Below are positions 8,297 through 22,143 of a DNA stretch of 53,346 nt, one piece after another; the stretch's first letter is position 1, and the number at the start of each line of letters is the position of its first letter. The notes below the pieces were generated by a model, which did not search any database, was not told the origin of the DNA, and saw only the letters and a program-made list of their open reading frames with translations. The position numbers and the translations under genes were made by a program. The stretch spans positions 1-53,346 of the forward strand of contig JALGWI010000023.1 in assembly GCA_025774245.1 (NCBI GenBank), given 5' to 3'. The DNA comes from a bacterium. GTDB taxonomy: Bacteria > Joyebacterota > Joyebacteria > Joyebacterales > Joyebacteraceae.

Positions 8297-9973
8297 ATGT
8301 CCGGAAGCGAGCCGACGACAGGCAAGGTGGGGATCTTCCTCTGCGAGTGCGGCGGGGAGATCGCGGGGCCGATCGATCTCGACCGGCTCTCCCGCGACCT
8401 CTCCGCGCTCGGACCGGACGTCTCCGTTCAGACCACGCCGTACTGGTGCTCGGTCCTCGGCCGCCGGCGGCTCCGCGCCGCGATCGAGAAGGAGGGTCTC
8501 GACGCCGTGGTCGTGGCCGGGTGCAGCGAGCGGACGCACGGGACGACCATGGCAGAGGCGGCGGCGCAAGCGGGGGTGAACCGAAACCGCACGGTCCTCG
8601 TGAACCTCCTCGAGCACTGCGCGATGGTGCATCCCCGGAAGAAGACGGCCGCGACGTCGAAGGCGGCGAGGATGGTGAGGATCGGCGTGGCGAAGGCGAT
8701 GGAGGCCATCCCCCTCGAGCCCGTCACGACCGAGGTCCACGGCTCGGCCGTCGTCATCGGAGGCGGCGTCGCTGGGCTGTCCGCCGCCCGCGCGCTCGCC
8801 GCGAGGGGCATTCCCGTCGTTCTCGTCGAGCGCGAGCCCGAACTCGGGGGGATCCTCAGGGACGTGAACCTCCTCTTCCCCTCGTACGGGGACGCCGCGC
8901 GGTTCGCCGCCGAGATGTCCGACCGCACCGTCGCCGATGAACGCATCGACGTGCGGACCTCGTCGACGGTCGTCGACGTCGCCGGGCACGCGGGCGAGTA
9001 CGTGGTGACCGTCGAGACCGGCGGCGTCACGGAGGACGTCAGGGCGGGGAGCATCGTCCTCGCCACCGGTGCCGACGTCTTCGTCCCGCTGGGGCTGTTC
9101 GGCTACGGATCGAACGAGAAGGTCGTCACGCAGATCGAGTTCGAGAGCGTGCTCCGCGAGGGGCTGGACGACGCCAGGCGGATCGTGATGATCCAGTGCG
9201 TCGGGTCGCGCATCGCCGAGCGGCCATACTGCTCGCGCGTGTGCTGCACGGCCACCGTCAAGAACACGATCACGGTGCTCGAGAGCGTGCCCGACGCCGA
9301 GATCACGGTCCTGACGAGGGGCTTCGCTGAGTACGTCGGTGACCTCGATCGGGCCAGGGAGTCAGGAGTCGCCTTCCTGCGCTACGATCCCGAGCGGCCG
9401 CCCCGGGTTGAAGATGACGCAGTGAGGGTCTTCGACGTCATTTCGTCGGAGGAGGTCGCGATTCCGTACGACCTCGTCGTTCTCGCGACGCCGCTCGTGG
9501 CGCGGGCCGACACCGCCGAGCTCGCGCGGAAGCTCGGCCTGCCCGTTGATGACCAGGGCTTCGTGGCCGAGCCCCACACGAAGCTCCGGCCGTCGACCTA
9601 CGCGCCCCACGGCGTGTTCGTGGCCGGATCGGCGCACTGGCCGGCCACGGTCACGGAGTGCCAGAGCCAGGCGTTCAGCGCGGCGTCGCGGGTCGCGGAG
9701 CTGCTCGGCCGGGGCACGATCGAGCGCGAGCCAATGATCGCCGCCGTGGATGAGCTGACGTGCCGTGGGTGCGGCGAGTGTGTCGAGGCGTGCGCGCACG
9801 ACGCGCCCCGTCTCGTCGAGGGAGAGGACGGCATCAAGATCTCTAGGATCGACGCCCTGCGGTGTGTGGGATGCGGCGTCTGTATCCGCGTCTGCCCGTC
9901 CTCGGCCATAACACTTCAGCAGTTCACGCCGCGGCAGCTCCTGGATATCATCGGGGCCGCCGCCGAGGCGTAG
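8297..9973 (+). CDS. hdrA: HdrA-like FAD/Fe-S protein 1
   Basis: A 558-residue HdrA-family protein. It has an N-terminal domain (VGIFLCECGGEIAG; GCSERTHGTTM), a GGGVAGLSAARAL FAD-binding Rossmann motif, the family signature QCVGSRIAERPYCSRVCC, a second Rossmann part ending VAGSAHWPATVTECQSQA, and two C-terminal [4Fe-4S] ferredoxin sites (CRGCGECVEACAHDAP, CVGCGVCIRVCPSSAI). HdrA carries the bifurcating FAD in heterodisulfide reductases, and the Fe-S tail would exchange electrons with ferredoxin. The thioredoxin-reductase-like inserted Cys/Sec motif (FPTxDCSxC) of canonical HdrA is absent here, as in shorter bacterial HdrA versions. It follows the NuoG-like gene by 49 nt. Confidence 0.9.
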   Translation: MSGSEPTTGKVGIFLCECGGEIAGPIDLDRLSRDLSALGPDVSVQTTPYWCSVLGRRRLRAAIEKEGLDAVVVAGCSERTHGTTMAEAAAQAGVNRNRTVLVNLLEHCAMVHPRKKTAATSKAARMVRIGVAKAMEAIPLEPVTTEVHGSAVVIGGGVAGLSAARALAARGIPVVLVEREPELGGILRDVNLLFPSYGDAARFAAEMSDRTVADERIDVRTSSTVVDVAGHAGEYVVTVETGGVTEDVRAGSIVLATGADVFVPLGLFGYGSNEKVVTQIEFESVLREGLDDARRIVMIQCVGSRIAERPYCSRVCCTATVKNTITVLESVPDAEITVLTRGFAEYVGDLDRARESGVAFLRYDPERPPRVEDDAVRVFDVISSEEVAIPYDLVVLATPLVARADTAELARKLGLPVDDQGFVAEPHTKLRPSTYAPHGVFVAGSAHWPATVTECQSQAFSAASRVAELLGRGTIEREPMIAAVDELTCRGCGECVEACAHDAPRLVEGEDGIKISRIDALRCVGCGVCIRVCPSSAITLQQFTPRQLLDIIGAAAEA

Positions 9974-9989: not shown

Positions 9990-10739
9990 GTGGTTTCTCG
10001 CAGTGGCGATCCGAACATACTCGCGCTGGTCTGCGCGTGGCATCCCCTCACCGCCGCCGACAACGCGGGCGAGGACGGGTGCACGTACTCGGCGAAGGCG
10101 ACGGTCGTCGCGGTGGAGTGCGCCGGGCGCGTGACCACCGCCGCGCTCCTGAAGGCCCTGGCAGGTCGGCCGGACGGCGTCCTCGTGGCCGCCTGCGGCC
10201 GGGGGGACTGCCACTACTCGAACGGAAACGAGTCATGCGAGAAGGTCGTCGAGGAGACCCGTGAAATCATGAGGGTCGCGGGCATCGATCCGGCGAGGCT
10301 CGGGTTCGATCTCTCCTCCGACGTCGATGGGAGGCGGTTCGCGTCCCTCATCGACGGGTTCTCGGAGGATATCTCGAAGCTGAACGGTCGTGCGGCCGGT
10401 CGGGCGAGGGCCGTCCGGAAGCCGGCCCGCACGCGGAGCGGGAAGAGGACGACGAAGAGGGTGTCGCCTAAGAAGAAGGTCGCGACGAAGCGCGCGACGG
10501 GGCGGAAGAAGGTGACTCCGAAGAAGAAGACGGCGGCGAAGCGCGCGACGGGGCGGAAGAAGGCGGCGCCGAAGAAGAAGACGGCGGCGAAGCGCGCGAC
10601 GGGGCGGAAGAAGGCGACGCCGAAGAAGACGACGGCGGCGAAGCGCGCGCCCTCGACGAGGAAGACCGCGAAGAGGGCGACCGCGAAGAAGAAGAGTGCG
10701 ACGAAGAGCCGTCGCGCGAAGTCCACAGGTCGGAAGTAG
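9990..10739 (+). CDS. MvhD-like [2Fe-2S] protein with histone-H1-like Lys/Arg tail
   Basis: A 249-residue two-part protein. Residues 8-125 match MvhD (hydrogenase iron-sulfur/delta subunit): LALVCAWH, VECAGRVTT, VAACGRGDCHYSNGNESC and GIDPARLGFDL. In MvhD the CxWC, MCSGR and GCxxGDCHY cysteines bind a [2Fe-2S] cluster that passes electrons to HdrA. Here the second Cys of CxWC is His18 (CAWH). From about residue 130 to the end comes a strongly basic, Ala/Thr/Lys/Arg-rich tail with three near-identical modules built on TAAKRATGRKK, like the eukaryotic histone H1 or bacterial AlgP/HctB tails. No stop or frame break separates the two parts. The start is GTG 9990. The tail is unexpected for an electron carrier. 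Confidence 0.85.
   Translation: MVSRSGDPNILALVCAWHPLTAADNAGEDGCTYSAKATVVAVECAGRVTTAALLKALAGRPDGVLVAACGRGDCHYSNGNESCEKVVEETREIMRVAGIDPARLGFDLSSDVDGRRFASLIDGFSEDISKLNGRAAGRARAVRKPARTRSGKRTTKRVSPKKKVATKRATGRKKVTPKKKTAAKRATGRKKAAPKKKTAAKRATGRKKATPKKTTAAKRAPSTRKTAKRATAKKKSATKSRRAKSTGRK
10470..10640 (+). repeat. In-frame Lys/Arg-rich repeats of the MvhD-like tail
   Basis: Tandem units of about 48 nt, built on a conserved core encoding KKTAAKRATGRKK, occur about three to four times within 10470-10640. The nucleotide sequence is nearly identical between units, indicating recent expansion or gene conversion. Confidence 0.75.
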
Positions 10740-10753
10740 CGCAGGGGAGAAGA

Positions 10754-11884
10754 ATGCTCGAGGAGACCATCCAGAGGACGAAGGCGTACTACTGCCTCGA
10801 GTGCGGGATCTGCACGGGAAGCTGCCCCGTCTCGCGCTACCATCCCGATTTCTCCCCGCGCCTCATGGTGGAGCGGGCGCTCCTCCGCGCCGAGGGCCTC
10901 GCCCTCGAGGACCGGGAGATCTGGTCGTGCCTGACGTGCGGAACGTGCAGCGCGCGGTGTCCGTCGCTCGTGGACTACAACGAGTTCACGCGATCGACAC
11001 GCGTCGCCGCGCGGAAGGACGGGCATCCCGGCGTCGACACGCACGCGGGGACCGTGCTCGCGTTCATGGAGCTCCAGACGAAAGGCGCGGGCGAGCGAGA
11101 CCTCTCGTGGATCGCCGACGACCTCCGCACGTCGCGGAAGGGGAAGGTCCTCTTCTTCACCGGGTGCCTGCCGTACTTCGGCGTCGTCTTCCGCGACTAC
11201 GGCGTCGACGCCGTGGGGATGGCGAACTCGACCATCCGGCTCATGAACGCCGCGGGCGTCCGTCCCGTCGTGAGCCCCGCCGAGCGCTGCTGCGGACACG
11301 ACCCGTACTGGACCGGCGACGCCGAGACGATGAAGACGCTCGCGCGCCGGAACCTCAGGATGATCGAGGAGAGCGGGGCTCGGAAGGTAGTCTTCGCGTG
11401 CCCCGAGTGCTACGCGATGTTCAAACTCGTCTACCCGGACTTCTTCGGGCGCCTCAAGTTCGAGGTCGCCCACGTGACCGAGTTCCTCGCGGCGTCCGTC
11501 GCCAAGGGCAAGCTCGCGTTCGGCGAGATGGAGGGGACGGTCACGTACCAGGACCCGTGCCGGCTCGGACGGTACGCCGGCGTCTACGACGAGCCTCGCG
11601 AGCTCCTGGCCGCCGTCCCGGGACTAGAGCTCGTCGAGATGCCGCGGGCGCGCGCCGAGGCGCTCTGCTGCGGCTCGAGCGGATGGGTGAGCTGCACGAG
11701 GGTCAACAAGCGGATCCAGCTCGAGCGCCTCACCGAGGCGGCCGGGACGGGCGCATCGACCCTCGTGACGGGCTGCCCCAAGTGCAACATTCACCTGGCC
11801 TGCGCGGCCAGGGACGGTGACATTGACGATCCGATCGAGATCAGGTTCGTGACCGACCTCATGGCCGAGGCGCTCGGGACGTGA
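10754..11884 (+). CDS. HdrC-HdrB fusion (HdrD-like) Fe-S protein
   Basis: A 376-residue fusion. The N-terminal HdrC-like part has two [4Fe-4S] motifs (CLECGICTGSCPV and CLTCGTCSARCPS). The C-terminal HdrB-like part has two CCG domains: CCGHDPYW with CPECY, and DPCRLGRYAGVYDEPRELL followed by CCGSSGW and CPKC. In methanogens HdrB/HdrD use CCG domains to bind noncubane [4Fe-4S] clusters that reduce the CoM-S-S-CoB disulfide. In bacteria the acceptor of such proteins is usually unknown. It lies between the MvhD-like gene and the Sec-HdrA, as expected for an HdrABC-type complex. Confidence 0.93.
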   Translation: MLEETIQRTKAYYCLECGICTGSCPVSRYHPDFSPRLMVERALLRAEGLALEDREIWSCLTCGTCSARCPSLVDYNEFTRSTRVAARKDGHPGVDTHAGTVLAFMELQTKGAGERDLSWIADDLRTSRKGKVLFFTGCLPYFGVVFRDYGVDAVGMANSTIRLMNAAGVRPVVSPAERCCGHDPYWTGDAETMKTLARRNLRMIEESGARKVVFACPECYAMFKLVYPDFFGRLKFEVAHVTEFLAASVAKGKLAFGEMEGTVTYQDPCRLGRYAGVYDEPRELLAAVPGLELVEMPRARAEALCCGSSGWVSCTRVNKRIQLERLTEAAGTGASTLVTGCPKCNIHLACAARDGDIDDPIEIRFVTDLMAEALGT

Positions 11885-11931: not shown

Positions 11932-13184
11932 TTGGCCAAGGACGTTCTCGTCATCGGCGGGGGGATCGCCGGGATCCAGGCGTCGCTCGATCTCGCGGAG
12001 ATGGGCATCCAGGTCCATCTGGTGGAGAAGAGCCCGAGCATCGGCGGCGTGATGGCGCAGCTCGACAAGACGTTCCCGACGAACGACTGCTCCATCTGAA
12101 TCCTCGCGCCGAAGATGCTGGATGCCGGTCGGCATCCCTGACGCGGCGAAACGGAGGGTTCCGCGCCACCGTCCTCCGGAAGGCGAGGTACGTCGACGAG
12201 GAGATCTGTAACGCCTGCGGCGACTGCGTGGCCAAGTGCCCGACGAAGGTCGCGGACTCTTTCAACGTGGGGCTCGGTGAGCGGAAGGCGATCTACCTCT
12301 ACTTCGACCAAGGCATCCCGTCGGTCATGACGATCGACGAGGACAACTGCCGCTACTTCGCGACCGGGAAGTGCAAGGTCTGCGAGAAGATGTGCAAGAA
12401 GGGCGCGGTCGACTTCGAGCAGAAGGACCACCGCGTCTCGCTCGACGTCGGCGCGATCATCCTCGCGACGGGGCTCTCGGTCATGGACCCGACGCCGCTG
12501 ACGCAGTACGGCTACGGCAGGATCCCGAACGTCATCACGGGCCTCGAGTACGAACGGCTCATCAACGCCACCGGGCCGACCGGCGGCCACCTTCTCCGCC
12601 CGTCGGACGGCGAGCTCGCGCACAGGGTAGGATTCGTCCAGTGCGCCGGCTCGCGCGACCTGAACCACTGCGACTACTGCTCGAGCGTCTGCTGCATGTA
12701 CTCGATCAAGGACGCGATGCTCGGGCGCGAGCACGATCCCGAGTCCGTCTCGCACATCTTCCACACCGACCTCAGGAACGTCGGGAAGTGGTTCCAGCGA
12801 TACCAGATCAGGGGCGAGGAAGAGTACGGGATCAAGTTCGTGCGGGGGAGGATCGCCGAGATCCAGCACGGTCCCGCCGACAACCCGGTCCTCTGGTACG
12901 AGGACACGAGGACGCGAGAGGTCGCGAGCCTCGAGGTCGACCTGGTCGTCCTCGCGACGGCCGCGCTCCCGAGCCTGGACGCGAAGGAGCTCGCGGGGAC
13001 CCTCGGCGTCAAGGTCGACAGGTACGGCTTCGTGCTGACCGACGACGCGACGCCGTCCTCGACGAACGTGAAGGGCATCTACGCGTGCGGCTTCTGCAAG
13101 GGGCCGTGCGACATCCCCGAGTCGGTCGCGCAGGCGAGCGCGGCGGCGTCGAGCGCGTCGACGCGGGTGCTCGGGAACAAGTAG
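11932..13184 (+). CDS. hdrA: HdrA 2, selenoprotein with frame break after SECIS
   Basis: TTG 11932 (AAGGAG 11920-11925) starts an HdrA with the FAD motif GGGIAGIQASLDLA and the signature KTFPTNDCSI followed by an in-frame TGA (12097-12099, residue 56), then ILAPKMLDAGRHP. Canonical HdrA has Cys or selenocysteine at this position, so the TGA is read as Sec. After GRHP the frame stops (TGA 12139-12141). The rest continues one frame away from about 12138: LTRRNGGFRATVLRKARYVD, ferredoxin motif CNACGDCVAKCP, QCAGSRDLNHCDYCSSVCC and CGFCKGPCDIPESVAQASA. About 13 residues expected between GRHP and GGF are missing, so a deletion of about 40 nt (or an assembly error) is likely. This HdrA should carry FAD at the centre of the complex, if intact. 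Confidence 0.85.
12100..12137 (+). promoter_or_regulatory. SECIS-like hairpin after the HdrA UGA
   Basis: Stem GGATGCC (12120-12126) pairs with GGCATCC (12131-12137) around the loop GGTC. The loop begins 27 nt after the UGA, inside the spacing known for bacterial SECIS elements, and a GGU-containing apical loop is the SelB recognition feature. Confidence 0.75.
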
Positions 13185-13226: not shown

Positions 13227-14969
13227 ATGGAAGAACTCAGGATCGGCGTCTTCATCTGCAACTGCGGCACGAACATCGCTGGGTTCCTCGACGCGACGGA
13301 CGTGAGCGATTACTCGCGCGGTCTTCCCGGCGTCGTCTTCTCGCGGGAGAACCTCTACTCGTGCTCGGAGGCGGGCGTCTCCGACATCAAATCCGCGATC
13401 GTCGAGAACAAACTCAACCGCGTGATCGTCGCAGCGTGCACGCCGCGGACGCACGAGCCGACCTTTCGGGCAACGTGCGAGGACGCCGGCCTGAACCCGT
13501 TCTTCTTCGAGTTCGTGAACATCCGCGAGCACGTCTCGTGGGTCCACAAGAAAGAGCGCGAGGCCGCCACGCGGAAGGCCAGGGACCTCGTCCGCATGGC
13601 GGTGGCGCGGGCGGCCCTTCTCGAGCCACAGACGCCGATCGAGGCGAGCGTGATCCGCCGCGCCGTCGTGATCGGAGGCGGGATCTCGGGACTGACCGCC
13701 GCGAGGGAACTCGCCCGGAAGGGGATCGACGTCGTGCTGATCGAGCGGGAGAGGAAGCTCGGCGGCCTGGTGTCCGGGCTCTACGTCCTCGGGCCCGTTC
13801 CGAGGGACGCCCGGGCGTACGTCGCCTCCCTCGTCGCCGACGTCAGGAAGGACAGGCGGATCAGGATCATGACGGGCGCGACCGTCGAGCGCATCGGCGG
13901 CTACATCGGGAGCTACATGGTGGGTGTCCGTTCGAGGGGGAAGGCGAGCGAAATCGACTGCGGAGCGATCGTCGTCGCGACGGGCGCGGTGCCTCTCAAG
14001 CCCGAGGGGGTCTTCGGCTACGACGGGAAGAAGGTCATCTCGCTCTTCGAGTTCCAGGACCGGCTCAGGAAGGGCAAGCTCAGGGGCAGACGGTTCGTGA
14101 TGATCACCTGCGCCGGCGCGCGCGACCGCGAGCGGATCTACTGCTCGCGGATCTGCTGCGGCTCGGCGATCAAGGACGCGCTTCTCGTGAAGGAGCTCGA
14201 TCCCGGATCTTCGGTTCACATCCTCTACCGCGACCTCATGTGCTACGGCGTGGAGAACGAGGGAATCCTGCGGGCGGCGAAGGAGGCCGGGATCCGGTTC
14301 GTCAGCTACTCGAAGGACGCGCCGCCCGTCGTCGAGGACGGCGTGGTCAGGGTCGAGGGTGACGTCATGGGGGAGGAGCTCGCCATCGACGCCGACGTCG
14401 TCGTGCTCGCGTCGCCGCTCGTGGCCGACGAGGGAGCGAGCGAACTCTCGAAGATGCTCAAGGTGCCGCTCGATGCGGACCGGTTCTTCCTCGAGGCGCA
14501 CGTCAAGCTGCGCCCGATCGACTTCGCGACCGACGGCATCTTCGTGTGCGGAACGGCGCGCTGGCCGGCGACGACGCGCGAGTGTGCCGAGCAGGCGCTC
14601 GGCGCCGCGGCGAGGGCGTCGATCCCGCTCCTCGCGGGACGGGTCGAGGTCGAGCCCGCGGTCGCGGTCCTCGGGGACGAGGATCTCTGTCGGGGCTGCG
14701 GCATGTGCGCCGCCCTCTGTCCCTACGGCGCGATCGAGATCGTCGAGACCGACAGCGGTGAGAAGGCGAGCATGATCGAGGTCGCGTGCAAGGGCTGCGG
14801 GACCTGCGCCGCGACGTGCTACATGCGCGCGATCACGATGGTGCACTACACCGACGACCAGCTCAGGTCCCAGGTGAACGTGGCGTTCGAGGAACAGGCG
14901 ACACGCGCGGGTGGCGCGGTCGCCGAGCCCGGGGCCGCTGCGCCCACGGGCGCCGGAGGTTCGAAGTGA
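13227..14969 (+). CDS. hdrA: HdrA-like FAD/Fe-S protein 3
   Basis: A 580-residue HdrA-family protein and a close paralog of the one at 8297. It has the N-terminal motif IGVFICNCGTNIAGFLD and ACTPRTHEPTFR, the FAD motif GGGISGLTAARELA, the signature TCAGARDRERIYCSRICC, GTARWPATTRECAEQA, and two C-terminal [4Fe-4S] sites (CRGCGMCAALCPYGAI, CKGCGTCAATCYMRAI). In several anaerobes a Cys/Sec-containing HdrA is followed by such a second HdrA; together they form a two-FAD HdrA unit that exchanges electrons with ferredoxin and with MvhD. Its stop overlaps the start of the selenoprotein MvhD gene. Confidence 0.92.
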   Translation: MEELRIGVFICNCGTNIAGFLDATDVSDYSRGLPGVVFSRENLYSCSEAGVSDIKSAIVENKLNRVIVAACTPRTHEPTFRATCEDAGLNPFFFEFVNIREHVSWVHKKEREAATRKARDLVRMAVARAALLEPQTPIEASVIRRAVVIGGGISGLTAARELARKGIDVVLIERERKLGGLVSGLYVLGPVPRDARAYVASLVADVRKDRRIRIMTGATVERIGGYIGSYMVGVRSRGKASEIDCGAIVVATGAVPLKPEGVFGYDGKKVISLFEFQDRLRKGKLRGRRFVMITCAGARDRERIYCSRICCGSAIKDALLVKELDPGSSVHILYRDLMCYGVENEGILRAAKEAGIRFVSYSKDAPPVVEDGVVRVEGDVMGEELAIDADVVVLASPLVADEGASELSKMLKVPLDADRFFLEAHVKLRPIDFATDGIFVCGTARWPATTRECAEQALGAAARASIPLLAGRVEVEPAVAVLGDEDLCRGCGMCAALCPYGAIEIVETDSGEKASMIEVACKGCGTCAATCYMRAITMVHYTDDQLRSQVNVAFEEQATRAGGAVAEPGAAAPTGAGGSK

Positions 14970-15760
14970 GCGGAACGTACCGACCGAGGATCATCGCCTA
15001 CTGCTGCTACTGGTGAGCGTACGGCGCAGCCGACCTCGCCGGGGTTGCGAGGCTCCAGTATCCGCCTGATATACGCGTCGTGCGAGTGATGTGCTCGGGA
15101 CGCGTCGATCCGGCGCTCATCCTCGAGAGCTTCCTCGCGGGCGCCGACGGCGTTTTCGTGGGAGCGTGTCTCAAGGGCGAGTGCCACTACTCGGTCGGGA
15201 ACCTGATGGCCGAGGGCAAGATCGAGGTGACGAAGCGGATCCTCCGGAGGTTCGGCATCGATCCGGGCAGGCTCGTCATGAGGATGATGTCGAGCGCCCA
15301 GGGCGCGAAGTTCGTCGAGTTCGCCTCCGCGTTCCAGGACGACGTCGCCGCGCTCGGGCCCGTCGGATCGAGCGAGGGCATCGACGCCGCCGACGCGAAG
15401 CTCCGTCTCGCGGCCGCGAGGAACGCCCTCGCCGACAAGAAGCTCCGATGGGTCGAGGGGAAGTGGGTCGAGTTCCAGGAGGAAGGCAACCTGTACGGGG
15501 AGCGTTTCACGCTCCACGAGCTCGGCCGCATGTACGAGGAGATCGCGCTCGACGAGTGCGCGATCCAGGAGATCCGGCTCCGGCTCGAGGGCCGAGAGCT
15601 CTCGGCGAAGGAGCTCGCGCGACAGGTCAGGATCCCCGCGTACCGCGTGCTCCGTCACCTGGCCGACATGCGACGGATGGGTCTCGTCTCGGTCGCCGCG
15701 GTCGGCGACGGCGAGCCGGTCTGGTCGTCGTGCGAACTGGAGGAGATACCCGCCGCGTGA
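14966..15760 (+). CDS. mvhD: MvhD selenoprotein with C-terminal winged-helix extension
   Basis: GTG 14966 with GGAGG (14955-14959) starts a frame reading IIAYCCYW, then TGA (15014-15016, residue 17), then AYGAADLAGVARLQYPPD, VRVMCSGRVDP, GADGVFVGACLKGECHYSVG and GIDPGRLVMRMMSSAQGAKF. MvhD has a CxWC motif at this point, so the UGA replaces its second Cys and is read as selenocysteine. Both sides are in the same frame with no other stop. These residues bind the [2Fe-2S] cluster. The C-terminal third ends in a winged-helix-like domain (LSAKELARQVRIPAYRVLRHLADMRRMGLV), a fusion also seen in other bacterial MvhD proteins. It should link HdrA to an electron donor module. Automated calling would start it wrongly at 15080. 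Confidence 0.9.
15017..15052 (+). promoter_or_regulatory. SECIS-like hairpin after the MvhD UGA
   Basis: CCTCGC (15034-15039) pairs with GCGAGG (15047-15052) around the loop CGGGGTT. The loop begins 23 nt after the UGA and contains GGU, as expected for a bacterial SECIS. Confidence 0.7.
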
Positions 15761-20072: not shown

Positions 20073-20431
20073 CCCTGAACGAGGTGGTACACGTTCTCGA
20101 AGGCGAGCTTGTGTGCTGTGCCGAGAAGGACTCCATGGAGATCACGGGCGTCTGCGCGTCCGACCTCATGAGCGACGTGCTCGCCTTCGGCACGGCCGGG
20201 AGTCTTCTCATCACCGGGCTCACGAACGCGCAGTCGGTGAACACCGCCGAGGTGGCCGACGTGGTGGCCATCGCCTACGCGAGGGGGAAGCGCCCGGCCG
20301 ACTCCGTCCTGCTTCTGGCGGAGGAGAAGGGAATGCCCGTCATCCTCTGCGGGCTCTCGTTGTACGAGGCCTGCGGGAGGCTGTACGAACACGGCTTGGT
20401 GTCCGGCAGCGAGATCAGGGAGCCACAATGA
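20069..20431 (+). CDS. DRTGG-domain protein 2
   Basis: A 120-residue DRTGG-type protein: VLEGELVCCAEKDSMEITGV, then DLMSDVLAFGTAGSLLITGL, VADVVAIAYARGKRPAD and LCGLSLYEACGRLYEHGL. It is paralogous to the protein at 4282-4608. ATG 20069 overlaps the upstream stop (ATGA), and its own stop overlaps the next ATG, so it is tightly coupled to an anti-sigma-type ATPase and an FeFe-hydrogenase-like gene. This trio is known near bifurcating hydrogenases in anaerobes. A sensory or regulatory role is likely, but unproven. Confidence 0.82.
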   Translation: MTLNEVVHVLEGELVCCAEKDSMEITGVCASDLMSDVLAFGTAGSLLITGLTNAQSVNTAEVADVVAIAYARGKRPADSVLLLAEEKGMPVILCGLSLYEACGRLYEHGLVSGSEIREPQ

Positions 20432-20868
20432 GCGACGATCCTGAGATCATGCTCAGGGAGAGGTTCTCCATCCAGGGCGGAGACTTCGGCCGCGCCGGGA
20501 GGGTGTCGACGACGATCAAGTCGATGCTCAAGCAGATCGGGTTCCCGGCCCCGTTGATCCGCCGCGTCGCGATCGCGACCTACGAAGCCGAGATAAACGT
20601 CGTCGTCTACGCCGATCGCGCTGACGTGACGTTCGAGGTCACCCCGACGGTCATCCGCGTGATCCTCGAGGACGAGGGCCGCGGCATTGCGGACCTCGAC
20701 CTTGCCATGCAGGAAGGCTACTCCACCGCGACCGACGAGATCCGCGAGATGGGGTTCGGGGCGGGCATGGGCCTCCCGAACATCAAGCGCAACGCCGACG
20801 ATCTCGAGATCACGTCGGAGGTAGGCGTCGGCACGACCGTCAGGATCACGGTGCTCGCCGGCGAGTGA
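20428..20868 (+). CDS. Anti-sigma-factor-type GHKL ATPase (HATPase_c)
   Basis: A 146-residue stand-alone GHKL ATPase domain of the RsbW/SpoIIAB type. The N-box is EAEINVVVYA, the G1 box is DEGRGIADLD, and the G2 box is GFGAGMGLPNIKRNADD; a short beta-strand end follows (GVGTTVRITVL). It binds ATP; partner switching with a sigma or anti-anti-sigma factor is the family role, but none is encoded nearby. Its placement between DRTGG and FeFe-hydrogenase-like genes suggests it reports the redox or hydrogen state (inference). Confidence 0.85.
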   Translation: MSDDPEIMLRERFSIQGGDFGRAGRVSTTIKSMLKQIGFPAPLIRRVAIATYEAEINVVVYADRADVTFEVTPTVIRVILEDEGRGIADLDLAMQEGYSTATDEIREMGFGAGMGLPNIKRNADDLEITSEVGVGTTVRITVLAGE

Positions 20869-20877
20869 GGTACCGCC

Positions 20878-22143
20878 ATGGTTGCAGAAGGCTACTACCA
20901 CGCACACGAAGTCTGCCTCGAGAAGTGCGACGGCAGGATGAGGTGCCTCCGGGCGTGCCCGACCGGCGCCATCCGCGTGCGCGACGGCAAGGCCCGGATC
21001 ATCAGCGAGCTGTGCGTCGACTGCGGCGACTGCATCACGGCGTGCCCCCACAGCGCCGTCGTCCCGCTCGCCGACCGGCTCGACGAACGCTCGCCCGACT
21101 ACGTCTGCCGGATCGCCATCCCTTCGCCGGTCCTCTACTCGCAGTTCCCGTCGGACACGCCGCCGCGGCGGATCCGGGAGGGCCTGAAGCAGATCGGGTT
21201 CGACCACGTGTTCGACGTCTCGCGCGCCTGTGACTGGGCCGTCCTCGCGACGCGGATCTTCTTGAGGGAGCACACGGGCAAGTGGCCGATGATCTCGTCG
21301 TTCTGTCCGGCCGTCGTCCGGCTCATCCAGGTGAAGTACCCCGAGCTCACGGAGCACATCCTCGCGATGGAGGTTCCTCGCGAGGTGACGGCGCGGGAGG
21401 CGAAGATGAAGCTCTCGAAGGAGCTCGGAATCGCCCCGGAGAAGATCGAAGCGGTCTACGTCACCGCCTGCCCCGCGAAGGTGGTCTCGATCCGCCAGCC
21501 GGCCGAGAAGCAGAAGTCGTGGCTCGATCGCGCCGTCGCGATCTCCGAGATCTACGGGCCGCTCCGAAACGCGATGGCGCATCCCGAGAACGGCGGGACG
21601 GCCGAGCTCTTCGAGGACGCCACCTACGGTCCCGGCTGGTCGAGGCTCGGCGGCATGACGAGCGTCCTCGGGCGGGAGAAGTGGATCGCCGTCTCGGGCA
21701 CGAACGACGTGACGAAGATCCTCGACGACATCGAGAACTCGAGGCTCAGGGACGTCGAGTTCATCGAGGCGTCGACGTGCTTGGGCGGCTGCATCGGCGG
21801 CCCGCTCACGGTCGAGAACATCTACGTGGCCAGGAGCAGGACGATCAGACTCGGCGAGAAGCACGGCGGGAACATCGAGCGCTACGCGGGCCAGGTCGAG
21901 AGCCTCTACCGCTCGGGTTTCTTCGAGATGGAGAACCCGCTCGCGCCGAGGCCGCTCTCTCCGCTCGATCCCGACATCGGGAAGGCCATCGCCAAGGTGA
22001 GGAAGCGGGACGAGATCTACGAATCGCTTCCGAAGATCGACTGCGCGGCGTGCGGCTCGCCCAGCTGCATGGCGCTCGCTGAGGACATCGTGAAGGGCGA
22101 CGCCGATCGTTCCCAGTGCGTCGTCCTCCGGGCCGGCCGTTGA
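20878..22143 (+). CDS. FeFe-hydrogenase-like large subunit (sensory type)
   Basis: A 421-residue protein with two N-terminal [4Fe-4S] motifs (CDGRMRCLRACPTGA, CVDCGDCITACP), an FeFe-hydrogenase catalytic-like domain, and a C-terminal Fe-S segment (CAACGSPSCMALAEDI ... QCVV). The H-cluster signature cysteines are kept: L1 SSFCPA (Cys143), L2 TACPAK (Cys198) and L3 STCLGGCIGG (Cys301, Cys305). The first Cys of the L1 TSCCP motif, which relays protons in catalytic enzymes, is Phe142. This fits the putative sensory or weakly active groups (C/D-like) rather than a bulk hydrogen producer. Whether it carries an H-cluster is open; no hydE/F/G maturases are in the window. It is the last gene of the operon. 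Confidence 0.85.
   Translation: MVAEGYYHAHEVCLEKCDGRMRCLRACPTGAIRVRDGKARIISELCVDCGDCITACPHSAVVPLADRLDERSPDYVCRIAIPSPVLYSQFPSDTPPRRIREGLKQIGFDHVFDVSRACDWAVLATRIFLREHTGKWPMISSFCPAVVRLIQVKYPELTEHILAMEVPREVTAREAKMKLSKELGIAPEKIEAVYVTACPAKVVSIRQPAEKQKSWLDRAVAISEIYGPLRNAMAHPENGGTAELFEDATYGPGWSRLGGMTSVLGREKWIAVSGTNDVTKILDDIENSRLRDVEFIEASTCLGGCIGGPLTVENIYVARSRTIRLGEKHGGNIERYAGQVESLYRSGFFEMENPLAPRPLSPLDPDIGKAIAKVRKRDEIYESLPKIDCAACGSPSCMALAEDIVKGDADRSQCVVLRAGR

Follow-up and report, generated by a model that had tools for sequence, protein, structure and literature searches.

The DNA analysed here (the window, 53,346 nucleotides) belongs to a genome of 3.23 Mb that is 97.4% complete. Positions 9990-10739 of its plus strand form a single intact open reading frame of 249 amino acids, in which an FlpD/MvhD core (9990-10388) runs directly into a basic C-terminal tail (10389-10736). 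The frame starts with a GTG preceded by GGAAGG, and its TAG stop lies 15 bases 5′ of the ATG of the next gene. The Pfam profile PF02662 (FlpD) matches residues 10-131 with an E-value of 4.5e-31 and 107.8 bits, against a gathering cut-off of 22.3, and covers positions 1-122 of the 123 in the profile, which places the protein in this family over the full domain. It fell short of the whole-protein cut-off of VhuD (NF045873; 55.9 vs. 215 bits). The AlphaFold (AF2) model is shallow, being built on five sequences, and has pLDDT values mostly between 61 and 85 in the core; with this low-confidence model, the best PDB matches were the MvhD-like folds 5odc_D (E 1.9e-9) and 5odh_D, at E-values of about 2e-9 and 32% identity. 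Judged by its sequence, the tailed FlpD is a divergent subfamily of the PF02662 domain, not a canonical MvhD. An antisense open frame at 10214-11473 was not considered real, as it lies opposite a well-supported HdrCB gene.

The neighbouring genes, all on the plus strand, point to an Hdr-type operon. Directly upstream is an HdrA-like flavoprotein with NAD(P)/FAD-binding and 4Fe-4S domains (8297-9973; domain search, syntenic in orthologues). Downstream, an HdrC-HdrB-like protein with a 4Fe-4S and two CCG domains (10754-11884; domain search and synteny) has a ribosome-binding site of its own and starts at an ATG 15 bp past the stop codon of the tail. It is followed by two HdrA-like genes, at 11934-13184 (comparison with orthologues) and 13227-14969 (domain search and synteny), and by a canonical MvhD paralogue with a C-terminal winged helix (14984-15760). 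The tailed gene would encode the electron-transferring FlpD/MvhD subunit of a soluble Hdr-type complex of the order HdrA-FlpD-HdrCB-HdrA-HdrA-MvhD. Within the HdrA-like gene at 11934-13184 there is an in-frame UGA (CSI-UGA). Some 40 bases past it, a gap of 37 bp relative to the orthologues in G002 and G018 breaks the frame; in G008, a 75-bp in-frame gap begins at the same point. The 37-bp gap is possibly an assembly collapse or the mark of a decayed gene.

The MvhD paralogue also has an in-frame UGA (CYW-UGA), at the fourth position of a C-x-x-U motif. This UGA is kept in orthologues and outgroups and probably encodes selenocysteine; selB was found in this genome. The winged-helix domain (about 15512-15730; HTH_5 of Pfam, 6.8e-5) gave weak fold matches (E-values of about 0.04-0.1) to ArsR-type regulators and Z-alpha domains, and also occurs in outgroups that lack the FlpD tail. 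The CxxU form of MvhD is known, while its fusion to a winged helix looks little described. Further downstream (20431-22143) are genes for an RsbW-like ATPase and for [FeFe]-hydrogenase-like proteins (Fe_hyd_lg_C and FeS; the hydrogenase domain was tested), which we take to resemble a sensory hydrogenase cluster.

Cysteines of the FlpD core

Canonical members of the family have Cys at position four of the C-x-W-C motif, replaced by Sec in the known CxxU forms (PMC13188914). The tailed FlpD has CAWH instead, with His at the second Cys position, and retains C15, C44, C69, C74 and C83. The subfamily nevertheless lacks a consistent residue at this position: it is H, H, Y, H and H in five tailed orthologues (Y in G002) and H, I, N and T in four outgroup members, each time followed by Pro. 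C15, C44, C69 and C74, by contrast, are present in all nine members, and C83 in eight. The pattern of CxxC or CxxU plus three further cysteines is therefore not found in the tailed protein, where His occupies the second position and the other four cysteines are invariant across the nine members. The CAWH motif of the preliminary description is real, but a special role for its His as a cluster ligand was rejected, since the position varies between H, Y, T, I and N. The alignment is most simply read as a cluster held by the four conserved cysteines, without a ligand role for the His; these cysteines would probably suffice for a [2Fe-2S] cluster passing electrons to the HdrA flavin. ElpC/MvhD carries such a [2Fe-2S] cluster near the flavin of HdrA (PMC12350162), from which we infer that a C-terminal tail need not disturb electron transfer.

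A polycationic tail, predicted to be disordered and conserved in composition

The tail consists of 116 residues drawn from a limited alphabet (A, K, R, P, T, S, G and V), with 32 Lys, 20 Arg and neither Asp nor Glu. Its net charge is +52, compared to -6 for the core, and from model residue 131 onwards pLDDT values are almost all below 50, predicting disorder. The earlier view of the tail as histone-H1-like is thus supported both by its composition (Lys/Ala/Pro/Thr-rich, no acidic residues) and by the predicted disorder. A repeat search and in-frame alignment showed that the middle of the tail (10455-10658) is occupied by about 3.8 copies of a 51-bp (17-aa) tandem repeat, with units such as KKVTPKKKTAAKRATGR. 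A protein search with the tail as query returned only its own gene as significant, because low-complexity correction suppresses matches of this kind.

Five orthologues of the tailed FlpD were found, including that of the window, in three genera of the same family; one of the relatives is recorded as Candidatus Eisenbacteria. All five carry the tail, in frame and uninterrupted (116 residues in the window and 118, 76, 104 and 82 in the others), which is more than chance would give, and the other four tails contain zero or one acidic residue each. As far as the contigs reach, the orthologous loci share the gene order HdrA, tailed FlpD, HdrCB, HdrA, HdrA, with the UGA-containing MvhD coming next in G018 and G014. 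The same fusion in five independent genome assemblies rules out a frameshift or assembly artefact. The four further orthologues showed neither the tail as a separate gene nor a stop or frameshift near 10385, the two cases that the preliminary description had named as arguing against it; its central claim, of an MvhD-like carrier fused to a Lys/Arg tail, is confirmed as a genuine and conserved fusion in one open reading frame with a PF02662 core.

The next-nearest FlpD members in other lineages were taken from a profile search of 386 genomes. In four outgroup genomes (G153, G290, G217 and G122), the FlpD gene lies 4-5 kb from a UGA-containing MvhD, as in the window, and the tail is absent from these matching operons. 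The FlpD proteins of G153, G290 and G217 extend no more than about 10 residues past the core, that of G153 with a short, slightly basic end (RGRRVATSSSR). From these comparisons, the long FlpD tail seems to have been acquired in the Eisenbacteria lineage. In G122 (L081, contig 82), FlpD and HdrCB share one open frame, which suggests a direct fusion in this outgroup.

While the cores of the orthologues can be aligned, at 60-77% identity to the window FlpD, their tails cannot: they have the same composition, with different repeats in each. An alternative is that AAG-rich repeats expanding at gene ends have produced the tail as a tolerated by-product with little function. The 51-bp repeats, the variable length and the unalignable sequence of the tails, and the lability of the tail in a second FlpD paralogue (see below), are all consistent with this idea. 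Between the repeat copies, however, there are 30 replacement and only 4 silent differences, none of which introduces an acidic residue, although an alternative reading frame of the same DNA would encode 55 Asp or Glu. Moreover, tails of like composition built from unlike repeats are retained in 5/5 FlpD orthologues and, as described in the next section, in 18/18 transketolases, and dense AAG-rich tracts occur at just about five places in 3.2 Mb. Because no replacement is acidic and every orthologue has kept a tail despite unrelated repeats, a functionless expansion is disfavoured; we consider it an unlikely explanation.

Tails on other proteins in Candidatus Eisenbacteria

About 453 kb of this genome were sampled for Lys-rich C-terminal tails, yielding two, both on FlpD proteins, so that such tails are rare in it; this sample was not wholly blind, one stretch (contig 63) having been chosen for its FlpD gene. 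Genome-wide, the DNA pattern of dense AAG-AAG runs occurs at about five places in 3.2 Mb, corresponding to this FlpD, a second FlpD, transketolase, GyrB and a free-standing H1-like protein. On the basis of this sample and the DNA pattern, which together define the number of tailed proteins given here, the idea that such tails are common throughout the proteome was rejected. A milder, internal Lys-rich stretch was seen in the primary sigma factor of this genome.

The transketolase (L165:91-2364, G000 contig 20) bears a Lys-rich C-terminal tail of 180 residues, and was tailed in all 18 Eisenbacteria genomes in which it was found, with lengths of 32 to 180 residues (in G012 the contig ends within the tail). 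The tail of this enzyme matched PF07382, 'Histone H1-like nucleoprotein HC2', at 2e-8, a composition-driven match that stays below the curated cut-off; no match to this profile was obtained with the FlpD tail. The closest transketolases outside the phylum are 69-73% identical and have open frames of 674-680 residues, from which frame length it can be deduced that they lack a tail, being too short to hold one. GyrB (L228:814-3258, G000 contig 61) has its Lys-rich extension at the N-terminus, the GyrB domain beginning at about residue 178 of the open frame, and this extension was present in all three genomes read (the window genome, G001 and G006). The free-standing protein (L164:706-1131, G000 contig 9) has 141 amino acids, almost all of them Lys, Arg, Ala, Pro, Thr or Val, and similar proteins occur in G001 and G006.

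The second FlpD paralogue has a canonical CxxC motif and lies in an HdrC-HdrB-HdrA-FlpD(tailed) operon (L170 7205-10630 and the neighbouring FlpD, G000 contig 63), which adjoins Fer2/Fer4 and FAD_binding_2 (fumarate-reductase-like) genes. About nine of 15 genomes have it with a tail, as long as 134 residues in G008 and about 170 in G012 but short in others, and about six of the 15 have it untailed, indicating that the tail is not required for FlpD function in general. In G012 (L171:2965-3792, contig 116), one open frame links an FlpD core with an unrelated segment that has a Lys-rich tail; this may be a true fusion or an assembly join in a genome that is 57% complete.

The presence of these sequences on the second FlpD, transketolase, GyrB and the H1-like protein makes the tail a lineage feature of a few proteins, among which FlpD and transketolase are prominent. 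It had been proposed that the tailed paralogue was free to diverge because the neighbouring MvhD is canonical. The MvhD does indeed keep its CxxU motif, but tails are not a mark of such a paralogue only, as the canonical CxxC FlpD, transketolase and GyrB carry them too.

What does the tail bind? H1-like KPAA tails of AlgP and PhaF have been described as DNA-binding and are presumed to anchor granules on the chromosome (PMC9239181), and DNA-binding proteins typically have Lys-rich low-complexity regions (PMC6821194). We propose, with about even confidence, that the FlpD tail is a disordered H1-like polycation that would bind nucleic acid non-specifically and hold the Hdr-type complex at the nucleoid, comparable to the KPAA-repeat tails of PhaF/AlgP on granules. 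The extended FlpD C-terminus of Candidatus Eisenbacteria is one case of a tail type that this phylum places on few proteins (transketolase, GyrB and the two FlpD paralogues). Nucleic acid is favoured as partner because GyrB, a DNA enzyme, and the free-standing H1-like protein bear the same type of tail. The winged helix modelled on the operon's other MvhD may be a second hint of nucleic-acid contact.

The composition of the tail would equally suit RNA, ribosomes, anionic membranes or acidic proteins, and gives no DNA specificity. Accordingly, the tail could be a solubility or electrostatic docking element for RNA or ribosomes, anionic membrane lipids or acidic partners, with the nucleoid uninvolved. 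That transketolase is tailed as well, with no evident reason to sit on DNA, would fit this alternative, whereas the presence of this tail type on GyrB and the free-standing H1-like protein would not. An acidic docking partner was not found among the operon proteins examined, none of which has a strongly acidic tract (at most 11 Asp or Glu per 40 residues). We regard docking or solubility as rather improbable overall. It counts against the nucleoid proposal that, with tails that are unalignable and variable in length, selection for a specific function is inseparable from selection for positive charge or solubility.

Binding to polyphosphate, by non-covalent lysine polyphosphate modification or association with granules, was also considered, since AlgP, whose tail is similar, is found at polyP granules (PMC9239181) and Lys-rich stretches bind polyP (PMC12077175). 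PPK1 (PF02503), however, was found in 0/7 and PPK2 (PF03976) in 0/9 Eisenbacteria genomes searched, including that of the window, while control genomes matched, and we give this possibility very little weight. The lack of both PPKs in these genomes, and of any strongly acidic stretch in those operon proteins that were examined, makes nucleic acid, or else membrane lipid, the probable partner. Of the earlier suggestion that the tail binds DNA or polyanions and tethers the complex, the DNA tether is thus carried forward as a conditional proposal, while the polyphosphate part has been weakened.

H1-like tails on metabolic enzymes across the phylum are of more interest than the single FlpD gene. 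Their presence on a few proteins of the phylum suggests that these enzymes may be tethered to DNA or to another negatively charged polymer. A more speculative extension, which we put forward tentatively and think doubtful, is that the whole phylum has fixed such tails on certain metabolic enzymes (transketolase, wherever it occurs, and the two Hdr-type redox subunits) as well as on GyrB, which would hold enzymes of central carbon metabolism and electron bifurcation at the nucleoid, a form of chromatin-tethered metabolism. Should the tails bind DNA, they would offer a straightforward example, open to experiment, of bacterial metabolic enzymes anchored to the chromosome, and the lineage would be one where H1-like sequence spreads as a module. 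As an easy, soluble enzyme that bore a tail in every genome where it was found, transketolase suits a test of the tether idea.

Comparison with known systems

Both the FlpD subunit and this type of tail are known; their combination was, as far as the sequences and papers compared indicate, not found elsewhere. No Hdr or Mvh subunit with such a tail was seen in solved structures, sampled outgroup genomes or the literature searched, and literature searches on Lys-rich MvhD, tailed transketolase and Eisenbacteria Hdr returned nothing relevant. The tailed FlpD resembles MvhD, VhuD and ElpC (PF02662; 5odc_D, 7bkb_F and 8rvu_F) in core fold, domain length, HdrA-linked gene order and four cysteines. 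The solved chains, however, have 129-141 amino acids, stop at the end of the core and contain CxxC, whereas the tailed protein has His for the second Cys and a further 116 polycationic residues. PhaF and AlgP of Pseudomonas likewise carry a disordered Lys/Ala/Pro tail on an unrelated functional domain (PMC9239181), but they are granule-associated proteins rather than redox subunits, and their folded part is unrelated to FlpD. Chlamydial HC2 (PF07382) shares its residue composition with the Eisenbacteria tails and is a free-standing nucleoprotein, unlike a tail fused to FlpD. Lastly, bacterial topoisomerase I, Ku and HU have Lys-rich terminal repeats on otherwise folded proteins, as here (PMC6821194 and work cited there); these are DNA enzymes or nucleoid proteins, which an electron carrier of a heterodisulfide reductase is not.
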